A DNA stretch of 42,164 nucleotides from a virus: the IMG/VR virus record IMGVR_UViG_3300047678_000454, positions 1 to 42,164 of that record; one strand, given 5' to 3'. Shown here piece by piece: positions 230 to 16,472 of the stretch. Both the position numbers and the translations under genes were made by a program. Below the pieces are notes generated by a model that saw only the letters and a list, made by a program, of their open reading frames with translations, had not been told where the DNA came from and ran no database searches. The first letter of the stretch is position 1. Each line of letters starts with the position of its first letter.

Positions 230-1870
230 CTACAGAAACTTTACCACGGGCACGCCGTTCGACATTCTGACCATCACGGGCACGTCGTTGCTCGGTCCGA
301 TCCAAAAACTCCGGTTCGCCATATTGTTTGTAATGGCGAAAAGGCTCCACGTGTTGCTCGGATAATACGTGCCGCCGAAGGCGGTGATCGGAGCGTAGAA
401 ACTGGCTGATCGGGCGCTGCTGCCGCGCACCCGGAAAAACCGCGACGCGAGGGTGAAATCGTAGGCGATATTGAAGGTCACCAAGCCGCTGTTCGTTGAG
501 GCTGTATAGGTCGTGAATTTACCCCAACTCGTCGTGCTGATCAGGTTTGTAGAACTCTCCACTTGCCAGCCGTTAATCAGGTTGGTTTGCATCACCGTCA
601 GATTCGCCGCCAACTGGGTGCCATCGTCGGCAAAACCTTCGATCTTCACGAAGGCATTCGAGGTCACTAAATCGACCAGCGGGGCGCTGAGCTGGCTGTA
701 TGAATAATGGGTCGCCGCATTGGTATCAAATCCCGAGGCCCAGAGTGACGCCAGCGCGGCCGTGGCGACGTCCACATACTTCTTCGTGGCGGCGTCTGTA
801 AGGTGCACGGGATCGTCGAAGGCGGCATGCTGACCGATGAATGAATTCGTGCGGCCGATATACTCGGGATGATCTAGGCCGTAGAGTGTCAACGCGCCGA
901 CGTTTGTGCTGCTCGCGCCGACGACGCTGATGCTAATATTCGTGAAGGTCGTGAACCCGTTCGTGATGGAGAACCAGGCGTTTGTTCCCGTGTAGCTGCC
1001 GACGAGTTGTTCGAACTGATTTGTCGGCGGTGCCAGCCCGCCGCCACCGAGACTTGGCGTGGCCAATTTCCATGAGTAAAGCTGTGAGAAACGTCCGATG
1101 TAATTCGAGCCATTGAAGGTCAGGACGGGCAGGTTCGTGAGCGTGAACAGTGAGCTGCTGTAAACGCCATTGCTGAAGACGCTCGTCGTGACGAAATTCG
1201 TGCCCGGCGCTCCTACCGGAATACCGATGGTGACATAGGCAATGGAGCCGATGACGCCGGTGTTCGTGACCGTGGCCGCGCTGCCGGGCGCAAGGTTCGT
1301 GGCGGTGAAAGAGAAGTTCGTGATGCCACCGCCGACGCCGACACCGCCGCCGCTGTTCGTGGCGATGTAGTTCAGGAAAAGACTCAATGGTGTCGGCGGC
1401 AGATAATCCGTAGGTGACGCAAAGCCATCGAACGTCAGGATCGAATTCGTATTGGACGCGTGCAGCTCGATGGTGGCCGCCGGCAAGGTGTTGGTGATGG
1501 AGACGACTCCGTAAAAATTGCCAATGTCGTTCGTGTCCTGGCTGCTGAAGGTGATTTCCCAGATGAGATTGGTGTCCTGGTCACGCGTGGCATTGGCCAA
1601 GAGTTGCCACCGCTGAGAGGTGTAAAGTCCGGTCTCCCAAACGACGTTGGTGCTGCCGCCGGCGACGACCATGATCTGAAGATTGTTTGAGTCCAACGTT
1701 GGCAGCCGGCCGCGCCAGTTGAAATCCACGCGATCGCCGTTCGTCAGCCAGTTGTTGCTCTGGTCGTAGTTTTTGAGGAGCAGATCCGCACTCCCACCGA
1801 TGAACGGCATGCCGGCAAAGCTGTTGAGGAGCGAAACTAAAACTGTGGCGATGATGATGATTTTTTTCAT
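230..1870 (-). CDS. Exported Asn/Thr-rich tail-fibre-like protein
   Basis: The 546-residue product begins with a typical signal peptide (MKKIIIIATVLVSLLNSFA, residues 1-19). Residues 20-150 form a beta-rich N-terminal region, followed by a Gly-rich hinge near 173-182. At 358-367 it has TDAATKKYVD, a motif seen in many phage tail fibres and collar-like proteins. Residues 437-483 (VESSTNL ... SRFFRVRG) resemble a C-terminal domain frequent in verrucomicrobial secreted proteins, and a short tail-like module follows. The gene starts one base after the stop of the tail tip gene, which is the usual place for a receptor-binding fibre. A signal peptide on a phage fibre is unusual: it may be a true virion protein with a membrane-targeted N-terminus, or a protein secreted from lysogens. 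The assignment to the tail is inferred from position and the AATKKYVD motif. Confidence 0.7.
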   Translation of the reverse strand: MKKIIIIATVLVSLLNSFAGMPFIGGSADLLLKNYDQSNNWLTNGDRVDFNWRGRLPTLDSNNLQIMVVAGGSTNVVWETGLYTSQRWQLLANATRDQDTNLIWEITFSSQDTNDIGNFYGVVSITNTLPAATIELHASNTNSILTFDGFASPTDYLPPTPLSLFLNYIATNSGGGVGVGGGITNFSFTATNLAPGSAATVTNTGVIGSIAYVTIGIPVGAPGTNFVTTSVFSNGVYSSSLFTLTNLPVLTFNGSNYIGRFSQLYSWKLATPSLGGGGLAPPTNQFEQLVGSYTGTNAWFSITNGFTTFTNISISVVGASSTNVGALTLYGLDHPEYIGRTNSFIGQHAAFDDPVHLTDAATKKYVDVATAALASLWASGFDTNAATHYSYSQLSAPLVDLVTSNAFVKIEGFADDGTQLAANLTVMQTNLINGWQVESSTNLISTTSWGKFTTYTASTNSGLVTFNIAYDFTLASRFFRVRGSSARSASFYAPITAFGGTYYPSNTWSLFAITNNMANRSFWIGPSNDVPVMVRMSNGVPVVKFL

Positions 1871-1871
1871 G

Positions 1872-4682
1872 TCAGAACACGGTGTTAATGGTGAGATCGA
1901 AGCCGGCGGTGATCATGCCGCTGGCAGAGGCAGAGATGGCGATGGCCGCGGACGTTTTGACCGACACGCCAGATCCGCTCGCGCCGCCGCCGGCGGGTGC
2001 ATAGAGAGGCTCATTCACGTTTGGGGTGTAGGTCTGGAAGGTTTGATCGTAAACCACATCGGTTTGATTGCGCAGAATCGGGCCGCTGGTTTGAAACGTG
2101 ATCGTTGATCCGGGCGTGGTGCAAACCAATTTCAAGGGACCATACGGCACGAGCCGGGCGCACTTCAGCTTGGCGGGAATGAAGCCGGACACCGGCTTCG
2201 GTGTCTGCGAGGAATAAGACGAGGGATTCAGCAGCTCATCACCGTTGATGTCGAACACGTGGGCATAGGCACACACGGCCGCTCCGGAGCCGGTGACGAT
2301 GAATACCACGTCACGCGTCGTCGTTTGGTTGGTGGAATCGCGAGCGACCATGCGCAAGGTGTAAGTGCCGGGCGATTCGATCTTGGCCGTGGTCGAAAAG
2401 TTATAGCTGAACACGGGCGCAAAATTCTTGCTGCCGATGCTACGGCCGCCGGTCACGCCGCTCTTCAAAAGGGTGCTGGTGATCTGAACCAGATTGCCAT
2501 CGGGATCGCTCCAAACGCCCGTGACGGAAACCAGCAAAGGCCAGATGGTAGTGCCGGAGATCGTGTTTGAATAATTGGCGGGCGACGTGAGCGCGAACAC
2601 CGGCGCCGTGTTGCTGTTGATCGGGAAATTAAAACTGACGCTCGATGCCAGCGACACCGGCAGGATGGAGGTGAACGTGTTCGGTGAGAATTTCAGCAGC
2701 GCCGGCGTGAGCGTGCCGGCCGCACGCAAGGCGCGCAGGGTGTCGAACTGCGTATTGAACAGCGCCGTGACGTTCGCTTTCGGGATGAGCCAGACTTCAT
2801 GCTCGTCGCCGGCGATGCTGTTCCAGGTGAATGCGAGCGGCTGGGTGTTCTGGCGGCCGCGCAAGAGGGTGAGCTGGTAAATGCCGGCGCTCACGAGCGA
2901 CGTGGTGCTCACGCTGCAGATTTCCATGAGCGCGAAATTGCCGGATTCCAACACCTGCTGATAGGCGCTGCTGCTGCCGTGCGGCGTGCGCTGAACGATG
3001 AAGGCGAGCATCTTGTCGTTCGCTGCTTCGATGGCCGTCTGTTGGAATGTGAACAGGTCCGCATCCGGTTGAGTGGTGTCCACCGTCACATTGACGGTGG
3101 TATCCGTGGCCGCAATGTTCGACCCCACTTTGCCGCGGGCAGCAAAACCGGTGAACGAACCAAGCTGCGGAAACGTGCCGCCGCTACTCGTATCGAAATA
3201 AACCGAGCAGCCGCTGATGAGGCTCGATGGCCGCTGCACGAGCGTCACGATGCTGCCGCGTTCGACGCCGAGAACCGTCGGCACTTCCACGATGCGCAGA
3301 CTGGTGATGGCCGGCACGCTCAAGCCCGTCACGAGCGTTTGGGCGGCGCCGGGAGCGAACGGCACAGGAGCCAGGGTGTTCTCCGCAACCAGTTTCAGCG
3401 TGATCGGCCCGGTGCTGGGAATGCGGCGTTCGATCACGCGGAAATAGGCGAAGAGGCTGTTCGCATTCGGTTCGAGATCCACATCCAACAAAACATAACT
3501 GCCGGCGCGGATGGTCCGGGCCAGCTCGCGGCGCACACTGACCTCGCACGTCGTGACGGCATGGCCGATCACACGCAAGGTCTCGCGACCGTGCAGCACC
3601 GCTTGATCCGGCCGGCAGATATACGGCCGGTCCAACACCTGTTCGCGCACCGTGCCCAGCACCGTGAACAGGCGCGGATCATCCGCCTTGTCCGATACCT
3701 GCTGATAATTGAACTGCCGCGAAGGGTAGTTGATCGTCGCGCGTGATTTGGTTTGCTGCCACGAATTCGTGGAAAACTTCGGCACGCCGGCGAGCGCATC
3801 TTCGGTCAGCGTCACGTAACTGCCGGGCGTCACGCCATGCTGGAAAACACCGATCTCAATGGACTTCGTGGTTGGGTTGTAACGGCTGTAGCCGTCGATC
3901 ATATCCATGAGATGTTCGAAGACAGCGCGGAGAGTTTCGCAGGAATCAATTAACACGCTGCCGCCGGTCAGCAGCGGTTGTGCATCGAGGAGCGTGGCCA
4001 CGGCATTGAAGCTAGTGCCGTCGATCACGCCCGCGCCCTGGCCGGCGAGATTTTTATCCGTGAGAATTTCCACTGCGGCCGCGGCGACGTTGCACTGGCC
4101 ATCACTGATCAGTGCCGGCGATCCGGTGACAATGCTTTGCGTCGGCTTTTTGCGGACGATGATCTCCACGTTCGGACCGCTTTGAATTTCCTGCCCGAAT
4201 AGAAAATCGCGTAGCACGACGTAGCAAATGCCTTTGTAGTCCGGATGTTGATCGCCCTTGTCATTGCCGGAGCTCGCGAGCAGCGGATCCGCCGTCTGCG
4301 TTTGCGTGCCCCAGTAGAGCCGGATCACGCCATAGTAAGTGCCATCGTCGGCCGTGATGGAGAAATCATTATAGTCAGCACCGCTCCTCGCGAACGTGTA
4401 TTCCGTCCAGCCATTCAATCCCGAGCCGGGCGCGTTCGCCGTGCTGGCCGTGTGCGCGTTCGTGCAATACCAGGTCTGACCGTTGAAGACATAGAGGTGA
4501 CTCGTCCCGGTTAAAATGCTCAAGCCCACCGCCCACGCAACACCACCCGGCCAGACTTCTTTGCCGTTGAGAATGATGCTCACCAACTCGTCCACCGGAC
4601 CCACGCAAAGGCCGCCGGCGATCGTGCCGTAGTAGTTGTATGTGGTGCTGCCCGCACCGCCTGATTTGCCGCCGCCGCTCAT
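1872..4682 (-). CDS. Central tail tip / host-specificity protein (J-like)
   Basis: At 936 residues this is the largest protein in the window and follows a small assembly protein and NlpC/P60, the standard siphovirus tail-tip order. The N-terminus has a Gly-rich GGGKSGGAGS stretch and a predicted hub-like region with VDELVSIILNGKEVW. The middle (about residues 240-440) contains the DGYSRYNPTTKSIEIGVF and VREQVLDRPYICRPDQA segments typical of large tail-tip proteins that form the ring at the tail end. The C-terminal third is a Thr/Ser-rich beta region with a probable Ig-like segment near 700-800. Its start overlaps the AAATAA of the upstream gene's stop region and no good Shine-Dalgarno site is visible. 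It is expected to nucleate tail assembly and contact the cell surface. Naming it J-like rests on size, position and general pattern. Confidence 0.75.
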   Translation of the reverse strand: MSGGGKSGGAGSTTYNYYGTIAGGLCVGPVDELVSIILNGKEVWPGGVAWAVGLSILTGTSHLYVFNGQTWYCTNAHTASTANAPGSGLNGWTEYTFARSGADYNDFSITADDGTYYGVIRLYWGTQTQTADPLLASSGNDKGDQHPDYKGICYVVLRDFLFGQEIQSGPNVEIIVRKKPTQSIVTGSPALISDGQCNVAAAAVEILTDKNLAGQGAGVIDGTSFNAVATLLDAQPLLTGGSVLIDSCETLRAVFEHLMDMIDGYSRYNPTTKSIEIGVFQHGVTPGSYVTLTEDALAGVPKFSTNSWQQTKSRATINYPSRQFNYQQVSDKADDPRLFTVLGTVREQVLDRPYICRPDQAVLHGRETLRVIGHAVTTCEVSVRRELARTIRAGSYVLLDVDLEPNANSLFAYFRVIERRIPSTGPITLKLVAENTLAPVPFAPGAAQTLVTGLSVPAITSLRIVEVPTVLGVERGSIVTLVQRPSSLISGCSVYFDTSSGGTFPQLGSFTGFAARGKVGSNIAATDTTVNVTVDTTQPDADLFTFQQTAIEAANDKMLAFIVQRTPHGSSSAYQQVLESGNFALMEICSVSTTSLVSAGIYQLTLLRGRQNTQPLAFTWNSIAGDEHEVWLIPKANVTALFNTQFDTLRALRAAGTLTPALLKFSPNTFTSILPVSLASSVSFNFPINSNTAPVFALTSPANYSNTISGTTIWPLLVSVTGVWSDPDGNLVQITSTLLKSGVTGGRSIGSKNFAPVFSYNFSTTAKIESPGTYTLRMVARDSTNQTTTRDVVFIVTGSGAAVCAYAHVFDINGDELLNPSSYSSQTPKPVSGFIPAKLKCARLVPYGPLKLVCTTPGSTITFQTSGPILRNQTDVVYDQTFQTYTPNVNEPLYAPAGGGASGSGVSVKTSAAIAISASASGMITAGFDLTINTVF

Positions 4683-4685
4683 GGG

Positions 4686-4880
4686 TTATTTCTTTCCGGG
4701 GATAGTGTTAGGCGCTTTCTTCGCGCGCAGGTTGTAGATCGGCGAAAACCATTTCGCCGACACCTTGCGTGTGCCGGCGATGTAAGCGACCGGCACGGCC
4801 TGTTGCTGATTGCTGGTCATCTGATCCTGCACGCCGAACGGTTTCGACATGGGCGACGGGTTGGAGTTGCCGCCCATCAT
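4686..4880 (-). CDS. Small tail-tip assembly protein
   Basis: The 64-residue protein contains AVPVAYIAGTRKVSAKW, a pattern seen in short proteins encoded directly before J-like tail tip genes in transposable siphoviruses. Its start ATGATG overlaps the stop of the NlpC/P60 gene, so the two are translationally coupled, and it ends four bases before the tail tip start. The N-terminus is rich in Asn, Ser and Gln. It probably acts in tip assembly, but no enzymatic motif is present and the role is inferred from position. Confidence 0.6.
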   Translation of the reverse strand: MMGGNSNPSPMSKPFGVQDQMTSNQQQAVPVAYIAGTRKVSAKWFSPIYNLRAKKAPNTIPGKK

Positions 4881-5364: not shown

Positions 5365-5829
5365 TCAGGGGTTTTGCGGCGCCAACAGCCAGAGCCAGGC
5401 CGGCGGATTTAACGTGTTCGTAGATGGCGCACCGACCATGTTCAGGATCGGCGGATAATAATCCGACGTGCGGCTGACGACACTGTTGCTGAACGTCACC
5501 GTCAAATACTGGCCGGAATTGTAGAGCTGAACAAAACGCTCGCTGAGAATCGGATTCGTGGTGCCGATGCTCGTCGCCGGAATGGGCACCGTCTTGAAGG
5601 CGATCCACGTGCCATCGTTCGTGCCGGCATGGAAAAACACGGCCGTGTCCGGAAAATAATTCACCCCGTTGACCGTCACGAAATTATTGGTCGCCGGCGG
5701 ATATGCGGCCAGTTGAAACGTGACCCCGACTTCATTCGTCCCTACCGGCGTCGTGTGGAACGGCGGCGTCGCGCACGCGGGTAGAACGAGCGCGAAACCG
5801 AGCATGGTGATGAGGAGGTTTTTTTTCAT
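5365..5829 (-). CDS. Predicted exported lipoprotein in the tail module
   Basis: The 154-residue product starts with MKKNLLITMLGFALVLPAC, a lipoprotein signal with lipobox LPAC (Cys19). The remainder is beta-rich with many Asn/Thr pairs and aromatic residues, ending in a Pro-rich WLWLLAPQNP tail. Neighbours are a small unknown gene upstream and NlpC/P60 downstream, so it lies inside the tail-tip gene block. The leader AGAAATAAATTATG is A/T-rich with no Shine-Dalgarno site. The role is unknown. Surface exclusion of related phages or a membrane receptor-shielding function is possible for a lipoprotein in this position, but this is inference only. Confidence 0.65.
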   Translation of the reverse strand: MKKNLLITMLGFALVLPACATPPFHTTPVGTNEVGVTFQLAAYPPATNNFVTVNGVNYFPDTAVFFHAGTNDGTWIAFKTVPIPATSIGTTNPILSERFVQLYNSGQYLTVTFSNSVVSRTSDYYPPILNMVGAPSTNTLNPPAWLWLLAPQNP

Positions 5830-6048: not shown

Positions 6049-8052
6049 TTATTTCTTACCGCCGCCGCCCTGGTTGGTGTTCACCCGCAGCACGGACGGA
6101 TTGCCGACGGGCATAAAGGGAAATCCGCCGAAGCGGGAATAATTACTGAACTTCGTGTTGCACGTCGTGCGCTGACCATCGCAGCCGGGGAACATTTTCA
6201 CCACGTCGCCGGCGCTGGGAGCATTGAGGAGTGGTTGCGCGAGATAGAGCGTCACCTGGCCACCGCTGATCGCGAGATTATCGCTCACCATGCGGCTTTG
6301 TTTGACGCCGGCCGTGGTGATCTGCACGTAACCGGCAAAGAAAAAATGCGCGGCGAGCGTCGCGCCGTTGGAGCTGGTGATCGTGCCCACGATCAAGGTG
6401 CTCGTGCTGGCGTTGTAACTGACCACGGCGGCCGTCCACGTCCACGCCGCAATATCCAAGCCGCAGTTCGACTCAAACAGCACCCAATTGCAATTCGCCT
6501 GGTAAAGCCGGCGCGGGATCGTGCGCTCGAAAATGCTGCTCATGCTCGCGCAGTCCACGGAAATAAACGGGGGCTCCGAATCGCACGTGCCCACCTCCCC
6601 GGCGAAGTAGCAGCGCAAATTGGAAACACTGTTGCCCGAAACATCGCCCTCGTAAATTTCCACGAGCAGCGGCCACTCCAATTGAAAGGGCAGCAGCAGC
6701 GCCAGCGGATTGCCGGAAAAATTCCGACTCTTGATCGTCACGCTCTGACGTTCGAGATTATCTGTCTCCGTGATTTCCGTGTTGTCGAATGGCTGGCTCA
6801 CCCATGAATGGGTGCCGTCCGAAAGGGAGCGCTCGAAGCTGGTGAAATACCAAACCGTGGGACTGCTCGGAATGGTGAGCGTGAACTTATACAGCATCGC
6901 CGTTGCGGGCAGCGCACCCATCGTGGTGCCAATCGTCTCGCCGCTCACGGTCGTCAGTTCCCAGGGCAATTCTTTGAACGCGATCGTGGCCACCGCGAGA
7001 TCCGGCCGGGTGAACGCAACGGAAATTTTTAGCGCATCAAAACGCGCCAGGATCAAAGACTCGACGCGCGTCGTCGCAGCCGTGAACGCCGTGCCGATCG
7101 CTCCGGAGAGCGTCAGTGTGTTGCCGCTCACACTGTTCACTTTCACGGGCACGCGATTCACCAGGTCATCGAGCAGGAGGAAATTATTTCCGCTCAACGC
7201 CGAGCCGTCCACCACACTCAACGTCGTCGCGCTCGATGCCACGTTGGCGGTGAGCTGTGATTCACTGATGCCGGCCGGGAGCCAGAACGCCTTCGCTTCA
7301 CCACTGCGATCCAGAAAAAAGCGCAGGAGGTTTTGACCGTCGAGATTTTGCAGCGTGAATGATTGCGTCACCCGGCGGCGACTGCGTTGGGTGAAATACT
7401 GGCTCTGTTGCGCGCGCAGGGCACCGATGCTTTGCCAACTCACATCGTTTTCAGAAGTTCCGGAACGCGGCGGCGTCGCCCAGTTCGGCGAGAACGGAAA
7501 CAGTGGCGGCGTGCCGCTGCCGGCAGCGAGGCCCGTCGGCGGCGTGAACGTCGCCGGCGTCAGCGAATAGGTGTTGTCGTTTTCAACGAAATCAAATTCC
7601 ACGCTGGCGAGCGTGTCATTGATCAACGTCGGATCCGGGATGCTGTTCAGCCTGCCTACGCAGAGCGGATAACTCACGCGGGAAAACGGCGCATTGCTGG
7701 CCGGCTGCACACTCGGTGCAGCGGTGTCATCGAGGAGCACGTAAAACGCCGCGGTGATTGCCGGCGTCGCACTCGGTTGCGTCAAGCCCGGCCAGAACGG
7801 ACATAGCACCGCCTGCGTGGAGAGATCCTGCAAATTGTTCCGCAGATTGGTGATGGCCGTGTATCCATTCAACAGCGCGGAATATTTTACCGACAAGCGC
7901 AACGTATCGCCCGTGAGCCGGCGCGTCTCGCGCCCGGTGAGGCCACGTTCGTAGCTCGCCGGCAGCGCGGCCTCGATCTGGACAGCACTGGTCCATGACG
8001 GCGCGTCATCGAGCAGGAAGGCCGGATTAGAGTTGAACGTGACTGCAATCAT
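6049..8052 (-). CDS. BR0599/DUF2163-type distal tail protein
   Basis: Starting at the ATG at 8052 gives 667 residues. The N-terminal half is a beta-rich domain; the C-terminal part has the hallmarks of the phage BR0599 family: paired cysteines in NCNWVLFESNCGLD and the closing GCDGQRTTCNTKF ... FGGFPFMPVGNPS motif. In B3- and D3112-like phages a protein of this family follows the tape measure and forms part of the distal tail. The C-terminal cysteine pairs are likely structural. A longer frame runs upstream but would overlap the preceding gene and starts with Arg/Pro-rich sequence, so the internal start (MIAVTFNSNPAF) is preferred. The fusion of the N-terminal domain with the BR0599 domain makes it longer than many family members. 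Confidence 0.75.
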   Translation of the reverse strand: MIAVTFNSNPAFLLDDAPSWTSAVQIEAALPASYERGLTGRETRRLTGDTLRLSVKYSALLNGYTAITNLRNNLQDLSTQAVLCPFWPGLTQPSATPAITAAFYVLLDDTAAPSVQPASNAPFSRVSYPLCVGRLNSIPDPTLINDTLASVEFDFVENDNTYSLTPATFTPPTGLAAGSGTPPLFPFSPNWATPPRSGTSENDVSWQSIGALRAQQSQYFTQRSRRRVTQSFTLQNLDGQNLLRFFLDRSGEAKAFWLPAGISESQLTANVASSATTLSVVDGSALSGNNFLLLDDLVNRVPVKVNSVSGNTLTLSGAIGTAFTAATTRVESLILARFDALKISVAFTRPDLAVATIAFKELPWELTTVSGETIGTTMGALPATAMLYKFTLTIPSSPTVWYFTSFERSLSDGTHSWVSQPFDNTEITETDNLERQSVTIKSRNFSGNPLALLLPFQLEWPLLVEIYEGDVSGNSVSNLRCYFAGEVGTCDSEPPFISVDCASMSSIFERTIPRRLYQANCNWVLFESNCGLDIAAWTWTAAVVSYNASTSTLIVGTITSSNGATLAAHFFFAGYVQITTAGVKQSRMVSDNLAISGGQVTLYLAQPLLNAPSAGDVVKMFPGCDGQRTTCNTKFSNYSRFGGFPFMPVGNPSVLRVNTNQGGGGKK

Positions 8053-8101: not shown

Positions 8102-8350
8102 TCAGGAGCCGGCGGGAGCCGTGTTTGCTTCCACAGCAGCGGCGAGCTCGGTGGCTTTCGCATCCAGCGTGACACCGAGATCGGTGAGCGGTTGCAACTG
8201 TTCGGCGGTCGCGCCATTCGCGAGCGCGGCGGTCACGGCCGCATCTTGCGCGGCTTTGATGCCGTTGATGACCTTGAGCGCTCCGTCCATCACGGTGGTG
8301 GCGCGGGTGACGATCGGACCGAGAACTGCGATTTGTTGTGTGCCTGTCAT
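8102..8350 (-). CDS. Small Ala-rich helical tail-region protein
   Basis: The 82-residue protein starts at an ATG that overlaps the stop of the upstream membrane protein (ATGA), with GGAACACC before it. It is Ala/Thr-rich and predicted to be mostly helical, with heptad-like spacing over residues 15-80. It lies between the tape measure and the BR0599-type protein. No family is recognised; a minor tail or chaperone role is possible. Confidence 0.55.
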   Translation of the reverse strand: MTGTQQIAVLGPIVTRATTVMDGALKVINGIKAAQDAAVTAALANGATAEQLQPLTDLGVTLDAKATELAAAVEANTAPAGS

Positions 8351-8508
8351 GGTGTTCCTTTTTGGTGTTTTTTTACTGCGCACTCCAACGCCTCCGTTGA
8401 GGCGCGGAGAGATTTCAAAAGGCGTTGCTCGCTCCACCAGGTGAGCACGGCCGTGAGCGCGCTGCCGGTGAGCGTCCCGGCTAGAAAATAGAGGATGAGG
8501 AATTTCAT
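8347..8508 (-). CDS. Small single-span membrane protein after the tape measure
   Basis: This 53-residue frame begins with MKFLILYFLAGTLTGSALTA, giving one membrane segment over residues 3-23 followed by a charged helical tail (SEQRLLKSL). It starts two bases after the tape measure stop and overlaps the next gene by ATGA. The size and layout resemble small phage membrane proteins such as holin-like or spanin-like peptides, but nothing specific supports lysis. It is outside the proposed lysis region at 24-26 kb. Confidence 0.55.
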   Translation of the reverse strand: MKFLILYFLAGTLTGSALTAVLTWWSEQRLLKSLRASTEALECAVKKHQKGTP

Positions 8509-8510
8509 AA

Positions 8511-10757
8511 TCAGGCGCTGCGCACGCGGTGAAGGTTTTTGCCGACCACGTCCATGATGTATTTCTCGTGGGCATCGTTGCGCTCGATGTGATCCTGCAC
8601 CGCGCGCATATCGGTGAAGGAATAAATGCTCACGTTGCTGCCGCCACCGCCGCCACTCATCAGCGCGGCCGTTTGATCGGCCGGGAGAATGGTTCCGGCG
8701 GTGTCCGGCACAAAGAGTTCCGGCCCGCGTTCGCCGACCAGTGAGTAACGGCCCATGGGCGGACGGCCGCCATCGGCAAACGCACCGCCGAACATCGTGG
8801 ATAATTCCGCCGCGCCGATGAAGCCCGGCGCCGCCAGCGCGGCGCCGCCGAACGTCGCGATCGTGGCGAGCGTTGCCGCCGGCGACCAGATCGCGGCCGA
8901 TGCGGCGGCGGCCGGCGCACTGGCGGCCACCGATGCCGCCTGCAATCCGCGACCAACTGTGGCCATCATCACTTGCGTCAGCACCCAGCGCACGCCCATC
9001 TGCACGATGCCCTGCACGATCTCGCCGATGATGGAATTATAAATGTCCGAGAGCGCTTGTTTCCAAGTGCGCGTGCCCATGATCAAACCGGAGATGCCGT
9101 GACTGATGCTTTGCACGGCCGTATTGAACACGCTCCCGAACGTCTGTGCCGATTCGCGCGCGAGATTGTTCAGGTTCAGCAGCTGCACCTTGACTAGTTG
9201 AAATTGATATTGGAACGAGCTCGCGCCCTGCGTCGTCTGGATTTTGTTTTGCAGATCCACCTGCTGGATCATCAGCTCGTTTATCTTTTGCTGGATTTGT
9301 AGCTGCGCAGCCTTGTCCGTGGTGCCGTTGTATTGCCCCTGCAATGAGTTGATCACGGCCGCATTTTGCGCAAGGAGATTTTGGAGCAGCGGCACGGAAG
9401 CGGCATCGCGCTGGCGATCGCTGAGGAGCGGGTTGCCATCGAGCGCGCGGATTTTTCCTTCCGTCTGCGCGCGGTTGATGGTCTGCTGCAGTTCGGCGAT
9501 CTTCTCGAGCTCACTGCGATAGGCCTTCTCGGCGACCGTGCGTTTCTTCGCCGCCTCCTGCAGCAGATGCGTGTATTCGGCTTCCCCAATTTCTCCGGAG
9601 AAATAAAACGACTCCGCCAGATTCTTGCGCTCCTGGTATTCCACGCCGCTCAACTGCCCGCGCAGCACGCCGTCGGCATTCTGTTTTTCCGTGAGCTCAT
9701 CCTCGAGGGCCCGGAGCCGTTCGGAAACGTCGGCGCGCTCGGCGGCGCGGATCTTCCCGACGCTGGCTTCCTGCTCGCGGGATGATTTCTCGGCGGCCGC
9801 GCGCTCGAGGTCCGCGATCTTTGAGGCTTCCGCCCGCTTCAGCTCGTCCACGCGTGCGAACACTTCTTTGTTATATTTCGGACCCACAAACGAGTCAGAC
9901 TGTTGCAGCGTGAGCATCAGCTCCTGGCGCAATTTCTCAAAACGCTCATGTTCCGCCGCTATGAGTTTATCTGTTCCCGAGAGCACGTCCGGCGTGGAAC
10001 GATCCATCAGCTCCTTCAGCTTCGCCTTGGCCTTGACCTGCTCTTCGGAGACGTGCTTGAACTGGCTGGCCACCCAGTCATTTACTTCCGCCGGCGAGGC
10101 TTGCGCCAAATCTTTTTGAACGTCGTGCGTGGTCTGATCCTTGAACGGATCGCCCGTGTGAAAAAATTCTTCCACAGTTTCCGTGTTGTTCCGGCCCAGC
10201 GATCCGTCCGCTCGTTTGTAAAGTGGGATGCGCGGGCTCTTACCGAGATAATCGGAAAATTCTTTAGCGCTGGCGTCGGAGAGCAATCCGGCATTTTTGA
10301 AGAGCTGAATTTTTTCAAGTATGCCCGGCACCTTGTCGAGCGCCGCCACCAGGTCATCAATTTTCTTCGTGCCGTCGTCCACGCCCCCGAGCACGGCATA
10401 CCATTCGAGACTGAACACCGCTGCCGCCGCACCGGCAGCCACGAGGTAAGGCGTGAATGCCGCCAGGCTAAAACCCATCGTGCCCACTGCCTGCACAATG
10501 CGCGGCGTCTCCATCGCCAGCATCCGGATTGGATCAATACCCGCTACAATGCCATCCGTCATCGCGCGCGCGACGTGGCCCAGCTCCATCATTGCCATGC
10601 GGTTTGATCCCAGACCTTTCGTCAATTCCTTGGCGTGCTTGGTGGCCACCTTCAGCGGCGCACTGATCTCCGGAACTTTCTTCTCGACGAAGTCCTTCAG
10701 ATCAGCGGCTGCCGGCATGGTGTCCGCGACCACTACAATTTTAATCGGCTCGCCCAT
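8511..10757 (-). CDS. Tail tape measure protein
   Basis: At 748 residues it follows the tail assembly chaperone pair, the fixed place of the tape measure gene. The N-terminus (residues 1-60) is polar; residues 90-125 include a hydrophobic stretch. Residues about 230-480 are long charged coiled coils (Glu/Lys/Arg/Gln-rich, with many ERAAAEK-type heptads). The C-terminus has Ala-rich membrane-like segments near 590-660 and the common GRYSLVGERGPELFVP motif near 695. It sets tail length by spanning the tail lumen and may pass into the host membrane during DNA entry. The leader CAAAAAATAAAGTATG is A/T-rich and overlaps the chaperone stop region. Confidence 0.88.
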   Translation of the reverse strand: MGEPIKIVVVADTMPAAADLKDFVEKKVPEISAPLKVATKHAKELTKGLGSNRMAMMELGHVARAMTDGIVAGIDPIRMLAMETPRIVQAVGTMGFSLAAFTPYLVAAGAAAAVFSLEWYAVLGGVDDGTKKIDDLVAALDKVPGILEKIQLFKNAGLLSDASAKEFSDYLGKSPRIPLYKRADGSLGRNNTETVEEFFHTGDPFKDQTTHDVQKDLAQASPAEVNDWVASQFKHVSEEQVKAKAKLKELMDRSTPDVLSGTDKLIAAEHERFEKLRQELMLTLQQSDSFVGPKYNKEVFARVDELKRAEASKIADLERAAAEKSSREQEASVGKIRAAERADVSERLRALEDELTEKQNADGVLRGQLSGVEYQERKNLAESFYFSGEIGEAEYTHLLQEAAKKRTVAEKAYRSELEKIAELQQTINRAQTEGKIRALDGNPLLSDRQRDAASVPLLQNLLAQNAAVINSLQGQYNGTTDKAAQLQIQQKINELMIQQVDLQNKIQTTQGASSFQYQFQLVKVQLLNLNNLARESAQTFGSVFNTAVQSISHGISGLIMGTRTWKQALSDIYNSIIGEIVQGIVQMGVRWVLTQVMMATVGRGLQAASVAASAPAAAASAAIWSPAATLATIATFGGAALAAPGFIGAAELSTMFGGAFADGGRPPMGRYSLVGERGPELFVPDTAGTILPADQTAALMSGGGGGSNVSIYSFTDMRAVQDHIERNDAHEKYIMDVVGKNLHRVRSA

Positions 10758-10760: not shown

Positions 10761-11066
10761 TTATTTTTTGGTTTCGGGATTGATTACTTTCAGCAGCAAG
10801 TTGCGCTGCGCACTCCAACTTTTTGAATCACCCTGCGCGGCGGTCATCAGCAGCAGGATCGTTTCCGCCTCCCGCCGGCGATGCGCTTCCGACAGGGCCG
10901 TGAGCCGTTCCCAGCTCAACTCGATCGCCGCATCGAGACTCAGGCCGCACCGGGCTGCAAGATCGCAGGCAACCGTGAGGAGATCATGCGTTCGATCAGC
11001 TCCGGTGGCAGGTTGCGCAGATTTTCCGCCGCGCGTTCGTTTTGGCGGGCGGCATAGGTAAAAAAA
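10761..11066 (-). CDS. Tail assembly chaperone T-like extension, reached by -1 frameshift
   Basis: The frame has no credible start of its own but stays open across the end of the upstream chaperone frame, in the -1 phase. At the T_TTT_TTT slip site a ribosome would leave the zero frame after residue 86 and enter this frame, adding 99 residues and giving a fusion of about 185 residues. This matches the G/GT arrangement of lambda-like and many other long-tailed phages. The C-terminal part (LLTVACDLAARCGLSLD ...) is Leu/Ala/Arg-rich and helical, as in other T domains. It sits immediately before the tape measure gene, which the chaperones are expected to coat during tail assembly. Confidence 0.75.
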   Translation of the reverse strand, partial: FFYLCRPPKRTRGGKSAQPATGADRTHDLLTVACDLAARCGLSLDAAIELSWERLTALSEAHRRREAETILLLMTAAQGDSKSWSAQRNLLLKVINPETKK

Positions 11067-11317
11067 CCGTTCGCATTCACCTCCCGCACGGCGGCGTTCA
11101 CGCGTTCGTAACTCTCCGGGTGCAGCGCTTCCACCAGCCCGCGATTCACACCACATACGAGCGCGGCAAAACCGAACTCATCATCGAGCAACTTCATCGC
11201 CGCCGGATAATCCTTCAGCTTGAGCTGGTTCACGGTGAACTCGCCGGCGCGCGAATCCTCGAACGTGACTTCGATCACTTTTTTTCCGAACAGCGTGGTG
11301 GCAGCATTTTCATTCAT
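10940..11317 (-). CDS. Tail assembly chaperone, G-like
   Basis: The preferred start at 11317 gives 125 residues, MNENAATTLFGKKVIEVTF at the N-terminus, followed by a helical region containing LKDYPAAMKLLDDEFG. Size, position before the tape measure, and an overlapping -1 frame place it as the shorter chaperone. It would be made at high level, with a minority of ribosomes making the longer fusion. A longer upstream start would run into the exported glycosidase-like gene. Confidence 0.75.
   Translation of the reverse strand: MNENAATTLFGKKVIEVTFEDSRAGEFTVNQLKLKDYPAAMKLLDDEFGFAALVCGVNRGLVEALHPESYERVNAAVREVNANGFFTYAARQNERAAENLRNLPPELIERMISSRLPAILQPGAA
11060..11066 (-). other. -1 ribosomal frameshift site T_TTT_TTT
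   Basis: On the minus strand the zero-frame codons are GGT TTT TTT ACC, so seven consecutive T residues form a perfect X_XXY_YYZ heptamer. Slipping back one base continues as TAC CTA TGC in the second chaperone frame, which is open to 10761. The site lies within the overlap of the two frames. A downstream pseudoknot was not established. Confidence 0.75.
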
Positions 11318-11321
11318 ACGA

Positions 11322-13211
11322 TTAAGGCGAGTAGTAAAAGGAGCCGTTGGTGTAGCGCAGGTAGTAACCATTAGCGGGGGAGTTGACGGTGTTGAGTTGG
11401 GAGAGCAGCGGCATGGCGCGAATCAGACAGGAAGTATTGGCCGCCAGGTTCGTGGAGAAGGAAGCGCCGTTGCCCAGCACGGTGCCGGTGCGAACGTCGA
11501 TAAAATTGCAAACGTAGTTCGTGCCGATGCGCAAATCTTTCAGCGCCACTGTGAGGTTCGTGGCCGTGCTGCCGGACTCGTTGGCGAGCACCACCGCCAC
11601 CGATCCATCGTAAAGCGGCTTGGCCACGATCATGCCCACATTTTTGCCGCAGTCGCGGACGTAGTAGGGAAAGTTTTGCAGGGGATCGTTGTGAATCCCA
11701 CAAACGCCGGCGTTAGTCCATTGCGAGTAGTTCGCCAGGGAGTCATTAAAGCCGGAGAAGAATGGACTCCAGCCGCACAACGCCATGAGGTTGACAGATG
11801 CGGCCGAGCCATCGGCCTCGATGATGTGGCCGCGTAGAACTTTTTCCGCATTGGGATACGTGTTGACGTAGCGGCGGTATTCGCGGCAGGCCTGAATGGA
11901 GGTTGATCCATAATTCGCCGAATCCGCCGGCGCGTCATACTGCAGCGCGTTGTGCGCCGTGTAGAGGTCTGGCATCGTGACTGAGGGCACGCCGCCGTTC
12001 GGATTTTCGTAGGCAGTGAAGGAAATGGGGCGGGTGCGCGCCGGGATCCACGGTGATCCCGGATCGTTCCAGACGTGGCGTCCGAAGACGCTGTAGTTCG
12101 GATAAAGGATGTTCCACGCGATGGTGTTTTCGATGGCCAGGAATTCCGGGATCGTGCAGTGCGTATCGTTGTCTTCGATCGTGTCAACACCCCACAAATA
12201 AAGTTTTTGGATGTCGTTGGAGATGAAATCGGGCGTCATGAGCGGATTCCAATTGGTGTGCGCGGCTTGCGCCCAGTAGGCATCGCGGCCCACGGCGGCC
12301 ACGGCGGAGTAAGTGACGTAAACGTTCTGGTTGGCGTAGTTCGCATTCGTCAGCACCCAGAAGCCGTCCGCGCTGGAATAGCCCGGCTGATTCGTCGCCT
12401 GATAGCCAGCCATGTTAATCATGAGTCCGATCTGGATGCCATTGGTGTGCAGAAAATCGACGAGGTTGGTAAATCCTTTGGGGTAGACGTTGGTCCGCTC
12501 ATAAAGGAATCCGTCGCTATCACGAATGAAACTGCCGACGTCCAGATTCACGCGCACAGGCAGGCCGTTCGATTTCAAATTTGGGATGATTCCGTTCGCG
12601 ACATACGCCAGGATATTCGTGCGGATCATGTTGTCATTCGTCATTGGTTTGACGGTCCCGCCACCCAAATATGGCTGGTAGGTAATGACGAGCGGCGCGT
12701 TGGTGACGGCGCAATGGATGGCTCCGATTGGGAAAGGGGATTCCATGCCCGCGGCAGAAAAACCCACGACCTGGCTGTTGGTGTAAACATACAGTCCGGA
12801 AACTTGGGTGGAAGGAATCAGCCCGGTGATGTTGCCGCTGGCTATGGCACCGGAAAATGAATTGCCCGTAAGGTTGCCAAAGACATCGACGCTGAAAGCC
12901 CCGTTCCAGTTGGTAAAAGTCAGCCCGCGAATGTTGGCCGACGAGTCAATGACCGGCCAGTAATTACCGCCGTTGGTGGCTAGGATCGCGCCGGTGACAT
13001 TGTTGGTTTGCGCGGAGATGCTGGTGGCGGTAATCGTTCGCGCATTGAGATTCGTCGCCCACACGGCCGTGAACTGTGCGTTGCTTTTCCCCAAGGCGCC
13101 GGGGCTCTCGGGATTCGGGATAATGTCAACGGCCCGCAGCCGCGACGCACAGGCCAGGGCGCAAAACGTGCCGAGCAGAAATAATTTTTGGAAGCGGGGA
13201 ATAGTGATCAT
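11322..13211 (-). CDS. Exported GH27-like (alpha-galactosidase-like) protein in the tail module
   Basis: The 629-residue product starts with a signal-like segment (residues 1-27, FLLGTFCALACA core). Residues 30-150 are Asn/Thr-rich and fibre-like (GKSNAQFTAVWATNLNAR). Residues about 160-480 fit a GH27-type barrel: NLDVG at 222-226, RDSDGFLYE at 230-238, YPKGFTNLVDFLHTNGIQIG at 243-262, and WGVDTIEDND at 341-350 at the place of the family's catalytic WGVDYLKYD strand. The C-terminal part is a beta domain with Asn/Thr repeats. It lies between the repeat-rich membrane-anchored protein and the chaperones. Family members remove terminal galactose or related sugars; here the natural target could be a host surface polysaccharide. 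Substrate and activity are inference, and the catalytic residues are not exactly canonical. Confidence 0.68.
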   Translation of the reverse strand: MITIPRFQKLFLLGTFCALACASRLRAVDIIPNPESPGALGKSNAQFTAVWATNLNARTITATSISAQTNNVTGAILATNGGNYWPVIDSSANIRGLTFTNWNGAFSVDVFGNLTGNSFSGAIASGNITGLIPSTQVSGLYVYTNSQVVGFSAAGMESPFPIGAIHCAVTNAPLVITYQPYLGGGTVKPMTNDNMIRTNILAYVANGIIPNLKSNGLPVRVNLDVGSFIRDSDGFLYERTNVYPKGFTNLVDFLHTNGIQIGLMINMAGYQATNQPGYSSADGFWVLTNANYANQNVYVTYSAVAAVGRDAYWAQAAHTNWNPLMTPDFISNDIQKLYLWGVDTIEDNDTHCTIPEFLAIENTIAWNILYPNYSVFGRHVWNDPGSPWIPARTRPISFTAYENPNGGVPSVTMPDLYTAHNALQYDAPADSANYGSTSIQACREYRRYVNTYPNAEKVLRGHIIEADGSAASVNLMALCGWSPFFSGFNDSLANYSQWTNAGVCGIHNDPLQNFPYYVRDCGKNVGMIVAKPLYDGSVAVVLANESGSTATNLTVALKDLRIGTNYVCNFIDVRTGTVLGNGASFSTNLAANTSCLIRAMPLLSQLNTVNSPANGYYLRYTNGSFYYSP

Positions 13212-13214
13212 GTT

Positions 13215-13850
13215 TTAGTTGGGGTATAGAGTTAAACTGCTGCCGGTCCATTTCGATGAACTGGCCGGCGAACTACTTGGATAAATGGCCGACGTGCTGC
13301 CGATCCATTGCGACGAGATGCCTGCCACGCCACTCGGATAAATGCCATTGGTTGAATTCGTCCACAGCACCGAGTCAGAGGGGTTGGGAATGATGTTGCC
13401 GGGCGGCGTGGAGCTGAAGCCGCCGCCGCTGCCACCGACATTCGTGCTGGCAGTTCCGCCGGCGATGTAACCGCCAACGATATTCGTGCGCGAATAATTG
13501 GTGCTCGATCCGCTGCCAGCCGTGAGGTTGGTGCGGGAAAAATTGGTGTTGAAGCCGCCCGCACTGCTCAGGTTGGTGCGGGAAAAATTGGTGTTGAAGC
13601 CGCCCGCACTGCTCAGGTTGGTGCGGGAAAAATTGGTGGAGAAAATCCCGGATCCAAAAAGATTCGTGCGCGAGAAATTCGTATTGTAGCCGCCGCTGCC
13701 CGTGAGATTGGTGCGCGAATAGTTCGTGCTGAAACTTTGCGTGAGCGATTGGCCGTGGGCCGGAAACGCGTTCACGAGAAAAATCACCCATGCGATTAAC
13801 ACAGCCAGCACGATCAGTTCGGGAATGTTCCTGACTAAAAATTTTCTCAC
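13215..13850 (-). CDS. Membrane-anchored repeat protein, fibre-like
   Basis: A GTG at 13850 gives a 211-residue protein whose start avoids the upstream hairpin. Residues about 9-28 (ELIVLAVLIAWVIFLVNAF) are a membrane anchor or uncleaved signal. It then has six copies of a 15-residue unit with core TNFSRTNL and Gly/Ser spacers, two of them identical in DNA, and three copies of a C-terminal 19-residue unit ending in IYPS or LYPN. It shares an IIPNP segment with the glycosidase-like protein, suggesting a common architecture. The gene lies four bases upstream of that gene. It may form a beta-helical stalk or surface fibre, but no family match is claimed. Confidence 0.6.
   Translation of the reverse strand: MRKFLVRNIPELIVLAVLIAWVIFLVNAFPAHGQSLTQSFSTNYSRTNLTGSGGYNTNFSRTNLFGSGIFSTNFSRTNLSSAGGFNTNFSRTNLSSAGGFNTNFSRTNLTAGSGSSTNYSRTNIVGGYIAGGTASTNVGGSGGGFSSTPPGNIIPNPSDSVLWTNSTNGIYPSGVAGISSQWIGSTSAIYPSSSPASSSKWTGSSLTLYPN
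13531..13638 (-). repeat. 45-bp tandem coding repeat
   Basis: Units at 13531-13575 and 13576-13620 are identical, and a third continues for about 18 bases before diverging. Each encodes 15 residues with core TNFSRTNL. Copy number could change by slippage without breaking the frame. Confidence 0.85.
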
Positions 13851-13863
13851 AATGGTTGGCGAT

Positions 13864-13909
13864 GTAGCGGCGCGGCAGTCATCCGGCATTGCCGGACAAC
13901 CGCCGCGCC
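13864..13909 (+). repeat. REP-like GTAG hairpin, long nested form
   Basis: GTAG at 13864-13867 is followed by stem GGCGCGGC (13869-13876) pairing with GCCGCGCC (13902-13909), with an inner TCCGGC/GCCGGA stem at 13882-13896 closing on ATT. It lies between the 51-residue gene and the repeat-protein gene and is not followed by a U tract, so a simple intrinsic terminator is unlikely. Confidence 0.65.
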
Positions 13910-13917
13910 CGTGGTTT

Positions 13918-14073
13918 TTAAGTCGCGGCGGTTTCGGACTCGTCGTCGTGTTTCTCCGGCTTGGTGCTGCCGGGCTTGGCGCTCGTATCCGGGCGGATCA
14001 GGTTTTTCGGCGGCGTCTGGTCGAGCTCCGGATTTTTCACCTTATTCACCGCGTGAGTTTTTTCAGTATTCAT
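13918..14073 (-). CDS. Small hydrophilic protein next to the tail tube
   Basis: This 51-residue frame begins MNTEKTHAVNK and is rich in Lys, Pro, Asp and Thr, probably disordered. It starts 11 bases after the tail tube stop. No family is recognised. A small gene is often found between tail tube and chaperones, so it could be an assembly factor, but the coding call rests on position and clean start-stop fit. Confidence 0.5.
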   Translation of the reverse strand: MNTEKTHAVNKVKNPELDQTPPKNLIRPDTSAKPGSTKPEKHDDESETAAT

Positions 14074-14084
14074 AGCGTGTGAGC

Positions 14085-14654
14085 TCAGGAGTTGTTGATC
14101 AGGCCGACGTTAAACGAGCTGTAGAGCACGTTGGCTTCCCATTGCGGCTTGATCACACTGCCCTCTTTGCTGGCCATGCCGCCGACGATGCGCAGCATCA
14201 CATACACATCGAGGTTGAGCATGAAGGCGTTGTTTTGGTCGTAGTGCTCCATGTGAAACCACCCTTTGCGCGGCGGCGCGGAGAGCGGATTGTAAACGCC
14301 GCCGGCGCTCGTGAGTTTTTGCGACGTGCGGAAAAACACTTCCATCGCCAGCGCGGAAATGTCTTCCGTGGTGAACTTGAACATGCCCTCCGCACCTTTC
14401 TCGATGATGTCATAAAGCTGCATGCGGCCGGGCATGGGCTTGTAGATTTTTTCATCGCCCATGGACTTGAAGCCGCTGTCATCCCAGTCAGCGATCGCGC
14501 CGACGTCGAGGTAGAGCGGATCCGTGGGATCAGGCTTGTTCGTGCGTGAACTGGCGCCGGCGCTGCTGCCGGAAGCGGGAATGGTGATGGTATCGCCGTC
14601 GCGGAAGAAGAATCCGTGTTTGCCGACGGCGTAACTGCCTATGGGTAGTGACAT
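14085..14654 (-). CDS. Major tail tube protein
   Basis: The 189-residue protein begins MSLPIGSYAVGKHGFFFRDG and has a beta-rich composition with segments such as PLYLDVGAIADWDDSGFK typical of non-contractile tail tube subunits. It follows the gp37-like connector and precedes the chaperone and tape measure genes. Many copies would stack to form the tail tube. No sheath protein gene accompanies it, which supports a siphovirus tail. The leader ACATAAAATAATATG is A/T-rich with no Shine-Dalgarno site. Confidence 0.72.
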   Translation of the reverse strand: MSLPIGSYAVGKHGFFFRDGDTITIPASGSSAGASSRTNKPDPTDPLYLDVGAIADWDDSGFKSMGDEKIYKPMPGRMQLYDIIEKGAEGMFKFTTEDISALAMEVFFRTSQKLTSAGGVYNPLSAPPRKGWFHMEHYDQNNAFMLNLDVYVMLRIVGGMASKEGSVIKPQWEANVLYSSFNVGLINNS

Positions 14655-14706
14655 ATTATTTTATGTATTTTGTTGGTTGGTTTCGCCGTGAATCGTTCAC
14701 GGAAAT

Positions 14707-15255
14707 TTATAGTGTGGGACCGGCACCCGTTTTGGTTTCTATCCAGCCGCCTTTGCATTCCAATTCCAGGGCGATGGCGGCGCGGCCCGGATGGTTCGCT
14801 TTTTCTTTTTCGTTTTTCACGATCATCACGTCGGATCCTGTCGGCGTGCAGATCACGCCGCTCGGATTCTCGAGCAACTGCCCGGTGACGAACGGCAGCG
14901 TGAGCGCTTCCAGCTTGTAAGCGCCGGGATTGTTGGCCGTGCCAAACAAGGCGTCATTGCGCTTGCCCAGGACACGATCCGAGATCAGCAGTGCGAACGG
15001 CACGGTCCGGCGCGTGAGAATTTTGGCGAACTTCACTTCCGTCTCCCAATGTTCCGCCAGGGGAACGATCAGGCAGATACGCTGCTCGCTGATGAGCAAC
15101 TGTTGAAACGCATCGGTGAGCGATTCGCTATCGAACAATTCCACCCGGAGAAACGCCGCCGTCGTATTGTCGGCGAGCTTCACGGCCGTGACTTGCGTCT
15201 TGAGCGCGGCGGCGATGTCGCCCACGGAAACGAGATGTGCGGTGGCCGGTGTCAT
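14707..15255 (-). CDS. gp37-like tail completion protein
   Basis: The 182-residue protein overlaps the upstream gp36-like gene by ATGA. Its position between gp36-like and tail tube genes, and its mixed alpha/beta character with LISEQRICLIVPLAEHWE, match the gp37/DUF1834 position in Mu-like phages. It is expected to act at the head-tail joint or as a tail terminator. Sequence similarity is weak by eye, so the name is mainly positional. Confidence 0.55.
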   Translation of the reverse strand: MTPATAHLVSVGDIAAALKTQVTAVKLADNTTAAFLRVELFDSESLTDAFQQLLISEQRICLIVPLAEHWETEVKFAKILTRRTVPFALLISDRVLGKRNDALFGTANNPGAYKLEALTLPFVTGQLLENPSGVICTPTGSDVMIVKNEKEKANHPGRAAIALELECKGGWIETKTGAGPTL

Positions 15256-15671
15256 TGCTTGGCGATGAACGTGCGTCCGAGTAACTGACTGTTTCCAGCC
15301 GTGGTGCCATCACCCCAGCCGCCGGCGATCGTGCTTTGCGTGGTGTCCGTCACTTTCGCCAGATTCAGCCGCTCGCCTTCGGCGATCGCCGTGAGCTCAT
15401 CCCACGTCGTCTTGTAATCATCCGCGATGGCCTTTGGGATCTCACCGAACTGCGCCTGGCTGTAGGCCCGATAGAGCGCGATGGTTCGGCCCCAGTTTGT
15501 GATGCTCGCCGGATCAATCACATAGCCGGCGGTGAGCCGGGCGACGTCCGCCGCCGCGCCGTTGCAGATGCCCTGCAATGCGGCATTCGCACCGCCGGTG
15601 TCACCGAGCGCAGTGGCGAACTGCGCCAGCTTGTCGGCGGGCAGATTGAGATCGGAAACAGCGAGGCTCAC
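15252..15671 (-). CDS. gp36/DUF1320-like neck protein
   Basis: The GTG start gives a 139-residue protein with helical segments IALYRAYSQAQFGEIPKAI and DDYKTTWDELTAIAEGERLN, a layout characteristic of the DUF1320/gp36 family of Mu-like head-tail connectors. It follows the capsid region and is coupled by ATGA to the gp37-like gene. The leader is A/T-rich (AAAATTAAAAATTTGTG), and a strong hairpin lies just upstream. Confidence 0.68.
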   Translation of the reverse strand: MSLAVSDLNLPADKLAQFATALGDTGGANAALQGICNGAAADVARLTAGYVIDPASITNWGRTIALYRAYSQAQFGEIPKAIADDYKTTWDELTAIAEGERLNLAKVTDTTQSTIAGGWGDGTTAGNSQLLGRTFIAKQ

Positions 15672-15697
15672 AAATTTTTAATTTTGAATTTTAAGTT

Positions 15698-15731
15698 GCC
15701 GGCGGCAGGGGTCGTGCGGCCTGCCGCCGGC
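15698..15731. repeat. Perfect 12-bp stem-loop between connector genes
   Basis: GCCGGCGGCAGG at 15698-15709 pairs exactly with 15720-15731 around a 10-base loop. It lies between the 57-residue gene and the gp36-like gene. It lacks the GTAG of the other hairpins. In the direction of transcription it is followed by an A-rich, not U-rich, stretch, so it may be an mRNA-stability or processing element. Confidence 0.7.
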
Positions 15732-15737
15732 GGTGAA

Positions 15738-15911
15738 CTATTTCTTATCTTTGTCGCCGGGCTTCGGATCTTCGACTTTGGGCTCGACGTATTTTTCGGC
15801 GAGCTTCTTCTCGATTAACGCCGCGGCATCCTTGTCAGGGACTTCGAGCGTTGAGCCGAATTTGCGGATATGGCCGCCATGGGCCACGGTTTGAAGGAAT
15901 TTAATCTTCAT
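15738..15911 (-). CDS. Small DUF7210-like head protein
   Basis: This 57-residue frame starts MKIKFLQTVAHGG, with a pattern (K-x-L-x-T-V-x-HGG ... G-x-x-x-E-V-P-D-x-x-A-x-x-L-I) shared by very small proteins encoded among capsid genes of Mu-like phages. The C-terminus is charged (EPKVEDPKPGDKDKK). It sits between the exported protein and the gp36-like connector. The leader GCAATAAAATATG is A/T-rich. The precise role is not known. Confidence 0.65.
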   Translation of the reverse strand: MKIKFLQTVAHGGHIRKFGSTLEVPDKDAAALIEKKLAEKYVEPKVEDPKPGDKDKK

Positions 15912-15914
15912 ATT

Positions 15915-16472
15915 TTATTGCGTGGATTGAGAGTAGAGCAGCGCCGCATTGACGTTCGTGCCGCAAGTCGTGCTGGCCTGCGTGCATTGCATCTTGCGGA
16001 TGTTGCTCAAGGTTGTGGCGGGAATGTTCGTCCAGAACACGTTGGTGAACGCCGCCGTGTTACCGACGAGCGGCACTGTCCAGGTGATTGGATAGCCACC
16101 GTTGCCTTTCGTCCACGTGAAGCCGTCGGCCGTCACGTCGAACTTCACCGTGTAGTTGGTGGTGGTCGAAGACGGGATTGCCGCGTTAGTGGACCACACC
16201 GCCAGGAAGAGCGTCACGCCCTGATTCTGGCGGATCGTCTTGATGTAGGTGTTCGTGCCGCCCGGCGCATTCGTGATCGTCTGACTGTTGGTCAGAGCGA
16301 ACTGCACCCAGTTGGTGTCGTTATACGCGAAGTTGGGCTGGCCGGTCTGGTAGCCCGCGGCGGCGAGGTTGGTCAACTGCGCTTGTGCCGGCAACGCCGA
16401 CAATGCGAGCAGTCCGATAGTAGCGCAGAGCAAGAGCATCTGCGTGAGGTCGAATTTTTTCGTGTTGTGCAT
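15915..16472 (-). CDS. Exported Asn/Thr-rich protein next to the major capsid gene
   Basis: The start at 16472 gives 185 residues with a clear signal peptide (LLLCATIGLLALSALPAQA, cleavage near residue 31). The mature part is beta-rich with many Thr-Asn pairs and four residues of Cys near the C-terminus region (QCTQASTTC). It lies immediately downstream of the major capsid gene, where a head-completion gene would be expected, yet it is predicted to be exported. No domain is recognised. It may be a lysogeny-expressed surface protein or an unusual virion component. The leader GAAATAAAAATATG is A/T-rich. Confidence 0.65.
   Translation of the reverse strand: MHNTKKFDLTQMLLLCATIGLLALSALPAQAQLTNLAAAGYQTGQPNFAYNDTNWVQFALTNSQTITNAPGGTNTYIKTIRQNQGVTLFLAVWSTNAAIPSSTTTNYTVKFDVTADGFTWTKGNGGYPITWTVPLVGNTAAFTNVFWTNIPATTLSNIRKMQCTQASTTCGTNVNAALLYSQSTQ

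Follow-up and report, generated by a model that had tools for sequence, protein, structure and literature searches.

Structural genes of phages are annotated on the presumption that their products are cytoplasmic, and the heads and tails of tailed phages are normally assembled in the cytoplasm. Lack of a signal peptide has served as an argument for phage origin (Benler 2018, PMC6199706), and for Verrucophage P8625, the one published lytic phage of Verrucomicrobia, 0 of 52 proteins were reported with a signal peptide (PMC4642752). There is also a known strategy in which an exported receptor-masking protein is encoded beside the receptor-binding gene, as with Llp of phage T5 (PMC9586334). In gene arrangement our point of comparison is the pair of Pseudomonas phages D3112 and B3, which are transposable siphophages (Casadabanvirus-like). 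The window, by which we mean the whole analysed stretch of 42,164 nucleotides from an IMG/VR virus record, shares with them a Mu-type portal, a similar head-tail order, a BR0599-type hub and a MuB-like ATPase, and its late-gene order is nearly that of D3112. The portal matches Portal_Mu at 1e-55 in a profile search, and the ATPase (34850-36016) matches phrog_296 at 2.6e-14 as well as AAA_22. The ORF in the MuA position (36215-37999) has no family match in the profile search. The other gene matches and the gene order place the window among D3112-like transposable siphophages.

Searches with the capsid and portal proteins found eleven syntenic relatives, with capsid identities of about 45-75%, which together with the window form our comparison set of 12 phages; their contigs end at differing points. 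In GTDB the window is closest to a contig that binning assigned to a Verrucomicrobia subdivision 3 genome, and at the end of one relative (G002) stands a bacterial glgC gene, its product sharing 85% identity with the one from a genome of the same class. Verrucomicrobia is well supported as the host phylum of the group, and for the window we infer it from sequence likeness. Because bacterial genes flank the phage in G002 (GlgC, at 1-1302 of L019) and in G004 (TrpB-like by eye, at 36304-37605), these two contigs look like integrated proviruses.

In this Mu-like group, apparently of Verrucomicrobia, the genes that build the particle are predicted to include genes for conserved exported proteins, among them tail-fibre-like and sugar-cutting ones. 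The relevant genes of the window are given below, with the score of each exported protein (P1 to P6) for a signal peptide. The slot is the interval between the tail tube and tail assembly chaperone genes.

230 to 1870, minus strand: P1, 546 aa, fibre-like, directly 3' of J, signal peptide MKKIIIIATVLVSLLNSFA with G following the cleavage site; score 45.1
1872 to 4682, minus strand: J-like tail tip or central fibre protein, no signal peptide; phrog_1101 at 3.5e-29, in 5/5 relatives searched
5365 to 5829, minus strand: P2, 154 aa, no family, between the hub and NlpC/P60 genes, with a signal peptide or a lipoprotein-like start; score 43.3
6049 to 8052, minus strand: baseplate hub or tail assembly protein, no signal peptide; Phage_BR0599 at 2e-15, phrog_778 at 2.2e-42
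8511 to 10757, minus strand: tape measure protein, no signal peptide; phrog_1538 at 1.2e-22
10940 to 11317, minus strand: tail assembly chaperone, closing the slot; Phage_TAC_7 at 0.0053 (below cutoff), position as D3112 orf42
11322 to 13211, minus strand: P3, 629 aa, signal peptide, N-terminal part fibre-like by eye, and a region like GH27 (alpha-galactosidase); score 37.1
13215 to 13850, minus strand: P4, 211 aa, signal peptide or anchor and TNxSRTNL repeats; score 58.0
14085 to 14654, minus strand: putative tail tube gene, opening the slot; no family match, the assignment following from its position relative to D3112 orf41 and its conservation among relatives
15915 to 16472, minus strand: P5, 185 aa, directly 3' of the capsid gene, a beta-sandwich with a signal peptide that resembles a pilin leader; score 48.2
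16538 to 17518, minus strand: major capsid protein, no signal peptide; phrog_1005 at 2.1e-40
25895 to 26548, minus strand: P6, 217 aa, the sixth of the exported proteins, with holin-like and DUF1353 genes nearby, no family; score 46.3

Signal peptides were scored by a simple rule that asks for a positive n-region, a hydrophobic h-region free of charges and small residues at both -3 and -1, with a threshold of 36, which composition-preserving shuffles of each protein reached in 0.5-0.7% of trials. The observed scores of P1-P5 and P6 were matched by at most 0.3% of their own shuffles. The preliminary description of this DNA had placed a signal peptide, lipobox or membrane anchor at the start of each of P1 to P5 and none in the structural genes interleaved with them. 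Both observations hold, as all five ORFs are present on the minus strand with scores above 36 and none of the labelled core genes of the window from the capsid gene to J is positive by the rule. Applied to lambda, the rule picks out 1 of 23 late genes, namely Lom, a known outer-membrane protein; applied to D3112 it picks out 0 of 29. From the capsid gene to just beyond J in the 12 phages, 0 of 105 core genes against 16 of 44 unlabelled genes are exported by the rule (p = 3.4e-10), and in distant Verrucomicrobiota prophages 4 of 141 unlabelled (non-core) genes are (p = 2.2e-8 against the clade), both p-values being indicative only because the gene caller was our own, the genomes are related and hence non-independent, and the contigs are variously truncated. 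The caller overlooked the exported ORF 3' of J in G002, which was recovered by reading frames. An N-terminal membrane segment in the large terminase was considered and rejected, codon-based calling giving a shorter terminase and a separate gene before it.

The exported proteins also differ from the core proteins in composition. Their richness in Asn and Thr, seen already in the preliminary description, is confirmed across the 12 phages, where the mature proteins contain 9.2% N and 12.6% T (core proteins 4.2% and 7.1%), and they are low in charge, with 3.9% K+R and 4.6% D+E (core proteins 9.7% and 10.9%). The comparison of these phages shows conserved predicted export signals at fixed positions in the late operon; Sec export itself, and action outside the cytoplasm, we infer. 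The placement within late genes given in the preliminary description is likewise supported, since the genes from the capsid to P1 form one contiguous operon with gaps of -4 to 67 bp. Its interpretation is supported in part: the proteins may form a coordinated system for surface modification or exclusion, or may be fibres built from exported pools. P1, P2 and P3 begin 1-3 bp after their upstream neighbours, and promoter-like sites in the operon are not above shuffled expectation (5 observed against 6.8). Given this operon structure, late co-expression with the virion genes is the natural reading. The apparent co-transcription of these genes with those for the capsid, tape measure and J proteins makes expression during lysogeny less likely.

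Our best explanation, for which we see about as much reason to accept as to doubt, is that these are a lineage-specific set of late-operon proteins that are exported and act outside the cytoplasm, most likely on surface glycans. They would be synthesized late together with the virion genes, exported by Sec via N-terminal signals that are predicted and conserved between phages, and would then bind and trim glycans on the surface of the infected cell or in its surroundings. Receptors would in this way be masked or removed, which would keep progeny from being lost on the dying cell or on the polymers that coat it. P5 would be the constant member throughout the lineage and P1 a recurring tail-fibre-like member beside J, and the slot, filled by P3 and P4 in the window, would hold proteins that vary from phage to phage and are fibre-like or act on glycans or esters. 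The main rival reading, possible but tentative, is that the proteins are virion appendages that leave the cytoplasm by export before they are added to the particle, either in the periplasm or at lysis. P5 would then be a capsid decoration or head fibre, and P1, P3 and P4 would be tail fibres or spikes.

P5 offers one conserved gene on which these readings can be tested. A relative of P5 lies 3' of the capsid gene in 12/12 phages including the window, with 21-61% identity to the window protein, and both this constancy and the place beside the capsid gene are in favor of a virion appendage. When alternative starts are allowed, 11 of the 12 are exported by the rule (the L008 member requires a TTG start), and the L085 protein, with a hydrophobic N-terminus, fails it. 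A cleavage site resembling A-x-A/G/S followed by Q is present in most members, and in the window protein the predicted mature chain begins with QLTNLA. Several of the leaders resemble type IV pilin leaders, and that of L006, MNTKRNFTLLEILVVIAVLGLLAALMIPSVQAD, is above the cutoffs of both Pfam N_methyl and TIGR02532. It is the only relative to pass them; the window leader has no match to either and no GFxxxE motif. Glu5 is absent from P5 of the window, L002, L004, L081 and L082, and Gly-1 is absent from all. Both the loss of Glu5 from most of the pilin-like members and the presence of a site like that of signal peptidase I speak against a true pilin function. Among 388 Verrucomicrobiota genomes, 238 have N-termini that match a P5 profile. 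P5 may plausibly have borrowed a pseudopilin leader that then became an ordinary signal peptide. The structure model of P5 (pLDDT 69.7) is a jelly-roll-like beta-sandwich, and Foldseek returned only jelly-roll matches to viral and phage structural proteins, which speak for a virion appendage but are weak (TM about 0.4-0.5).

The position directly 3' of J, which also suits a virion appendage, is occupied by an exported ORF in the window, in G002 (24197 onward) and in G005, and in G001 too, where the contig end cuts it. P1 residues 38-182 match residues 120-271 of the G002 post-J protein (28%, 4e-11) and P1 residues 416-546 match residues 181-306 of the G005 one (32%, 4.5e-13), both E-values coming from a four-sequence database. 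These two post-J proteins also carry signal peptides; domain order varies between phages and the signal peptide is kept. In G004 there are instead three ORFs between NlpC and J, two of them exported by the rule. A 36-residue piece of P1 that includes ATKKYVD has matches at E 0.5-10, most of them to proteins with the name tail fiber, and the C-terminus of the G002 post-J protein resembles cyanophage structural and fibre proteins with similarly weak E-values. Single matches of this kind mean little, and the evidence is the shared naming of the matches; for a virion role this is support that rests on names, at E-values mostly of 0.5 or worse. P1 has no Pfam or PHROG family and no match to the Ail/Lom beta-barrel, and neither the viral contigs nor the phage collection gave an informative relative.

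Of the 11 phages with a contig that spans the slot, 7 have exported proteins in it by the rule and two more by eye, with varying content; L084 and L085 have no exported protein there. The start of P4 at 13850 is a GTG with an in-frame ATG at 13889; in L002 the relative that occupies this position (13031-13927) begins with a clean signal peptide and carries the TNxSRTNL repeats again. P3 falls just short of Melibiase_C (22.8 bits, cutoff 22.9), also matches Melibiase_2, and against the PDB finds alpha-galactosidase 3lrk/3lrm at E 0.0012. A candidate catalytic stretch, WGVDTIEDND, was found by eye, with the position of the nucleophile uncertain and the catalytic residues not clearly placed. Its single-sequence structure model (pLDDT 37.5) was disregarded. 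No informative relatives of P3 were found in viral contigs, the phage collection or host genomes, and a match of its N-terminus in L116 was rejected as chance, being an unrelated region with stop codons. In L005 the slot protein is an SGNH/GDSL esterase (Pfam 4.3e-7, phrog_8480 8.6e-21) that resembles minor tail proteins of Gordonia phages, a further point for virion appendages. By eye, L004 has an SGNH-type protein in the slot and L008 a tailspike-like protein of 1164 residues. The glycan-directed role in our best explanation is favored by what the slot contains, namely proteins that resemble spikes or are predicted to act on glycans or esters (P3, L005, L008).

P2 was not found in L002 by tblastn and its position is not conserved. 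The lipobox claimed for it, VLPAC, departs from the canonical form, and cleavage by signal peptidase I after ACA and before T fits as well. Several other ORFs were observed. A 53-aa ORF with a hydrophobic N-terminus lies between the tape measure and hub genes (8347-8508, minus strand). On the strand opposite the late genes, 41314-41733 (plus) encodes a BamE-type lipoprotein (PF04355 at 1.5e-9, phrog_3135, and a weak Cor match), and G005 has a lipoprotein ORF of similar look. Small ORFs of the head-tail module in relatives contain a cold-shock-protein-like motif (KWFxxxKGFGFI...DVFVH) that was not seen in the window. By this motif they are:

L004, 11034-11264: cold-shock-like ORF
L005, 16979-17239: cold-shock-like ORF
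L006, 15794-16000: cold-shock-like ORF
L079, 13195-13422: cold-shock-like ORF
L084, 12062-12280: cold-shock-like ORF
L085, 12128-12406: cold-shock-like ORF

The expectation that related phages carry the same genes at the same positions was borne out for P5, P1 and the slot where P3 and P4 lie, but not for P2 and P3, which lack relatives at their own positions. Since the signals hold and exported genes recur at the same positions in relatives, the exported late-operon genes are not random insertions. The export reading rests on the P5 leader being kept in divergent relatives, on the P1 signal peptide being kept despite domain rearrangement, and on the low-charge, Asn/Thr-rich composition that sets these proteins apart from the core. 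We counted against our best explanation the near-threshold GH27 match of P3, the lack of conserved relatives of P2 and P3, and the simple rule behind the signal peptides.

The fibre-like architecture and the gene positions argue for joining virions, and P1 and the slot proteins look like virion fibre and spike parts. However, to our knowledge no tailed-phage virion protein is exported by Sec, heads and tails being assembled in the cytoplasm, and exported receptor-masking proteins such as T5 Llp are known. For these reasons action at the envelope or outside is favoured over addition to virions outside the cytoplasm. It is rather doubtful, on the sequences analysed, that one lineage of tailed phages sends part of its fibre and capsid-adjacent proteins through Sec and then completes its particles outside the cytoplasm. 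A third explanation, moron-like cargo, holds that unrelated genes for host secreted proteins were captured at tolerated sites and have no common role. The differing slot contents, the lack of relatives of P2 and P3 at their own positions and the likeness of the P5 leader to pseudopilin leaders, abundant in Verrucomicrobiota, would fit it, but P5 keeps one position in 12/12 phages, the P1 family recurs 3' of J, the starts of P1, P2 and P3 follow closely on their neighbours with no promoters standing out, the proteins have phage fibre architecture, and exported genes are far fewer in the distant prophages, all of which make it improbable. That the signals are artefacts, either other hydrophobic N-termini or wrong start codons, is very improbable despite the rule-based predictor and the ambiguous start of P4, given the contrast between core and P5 genes, the lambda control that detects Lom alone and the recurring P5 cleavage-like site.

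If head-tail operons do include a conserved exported set, then either fibre-like proteins and enzymes also take part in late-phase masking of receptors and remodelling of the envelope, or some tailed virions are completed outside the cytoplasm, contrary to the rule. Among known systems, D3112 differs from the window in having no signal peptide in its 29 late genes and no exported tube-to-chaperone slot, and where P5 would stand it has orf36, a different protein that lacks a leader. Verrucophage P8625 is likewise a siphophage of Verrucomicrobia and differs in having no reported signal peptides (PMC4642752). Type IV pilins and pseudopilins share the P5 leader, with the L006 member above both cutoffs, whereas the window P5 is below them, lacks the two pilin residues and has a signal-peptidase I-like leader end. 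Lambda Lom is, like P1, an exported protein encoded directly 3' of J, but P1 is fibre-like and outside the Lom/Ail family. The superinfection-exclusion lipoproteins T5 Llp and Cor are also exported proteins encoded in or near tail genes (PMC9586334); Llp is a very small outer-membrane lipoprotein, whereas P1-P5 are 154-629 aa and mostly without a lipobox. Finally, phage tailspikes and tail-associated esterases or depolymerases, such as the Gordonia minor tail protein and phrog_8480, likewise combine fibre-like parts with a hydrolase domain, and to this the phages described here add a predicted Sec signal and a site between the tube and chaperone genes.
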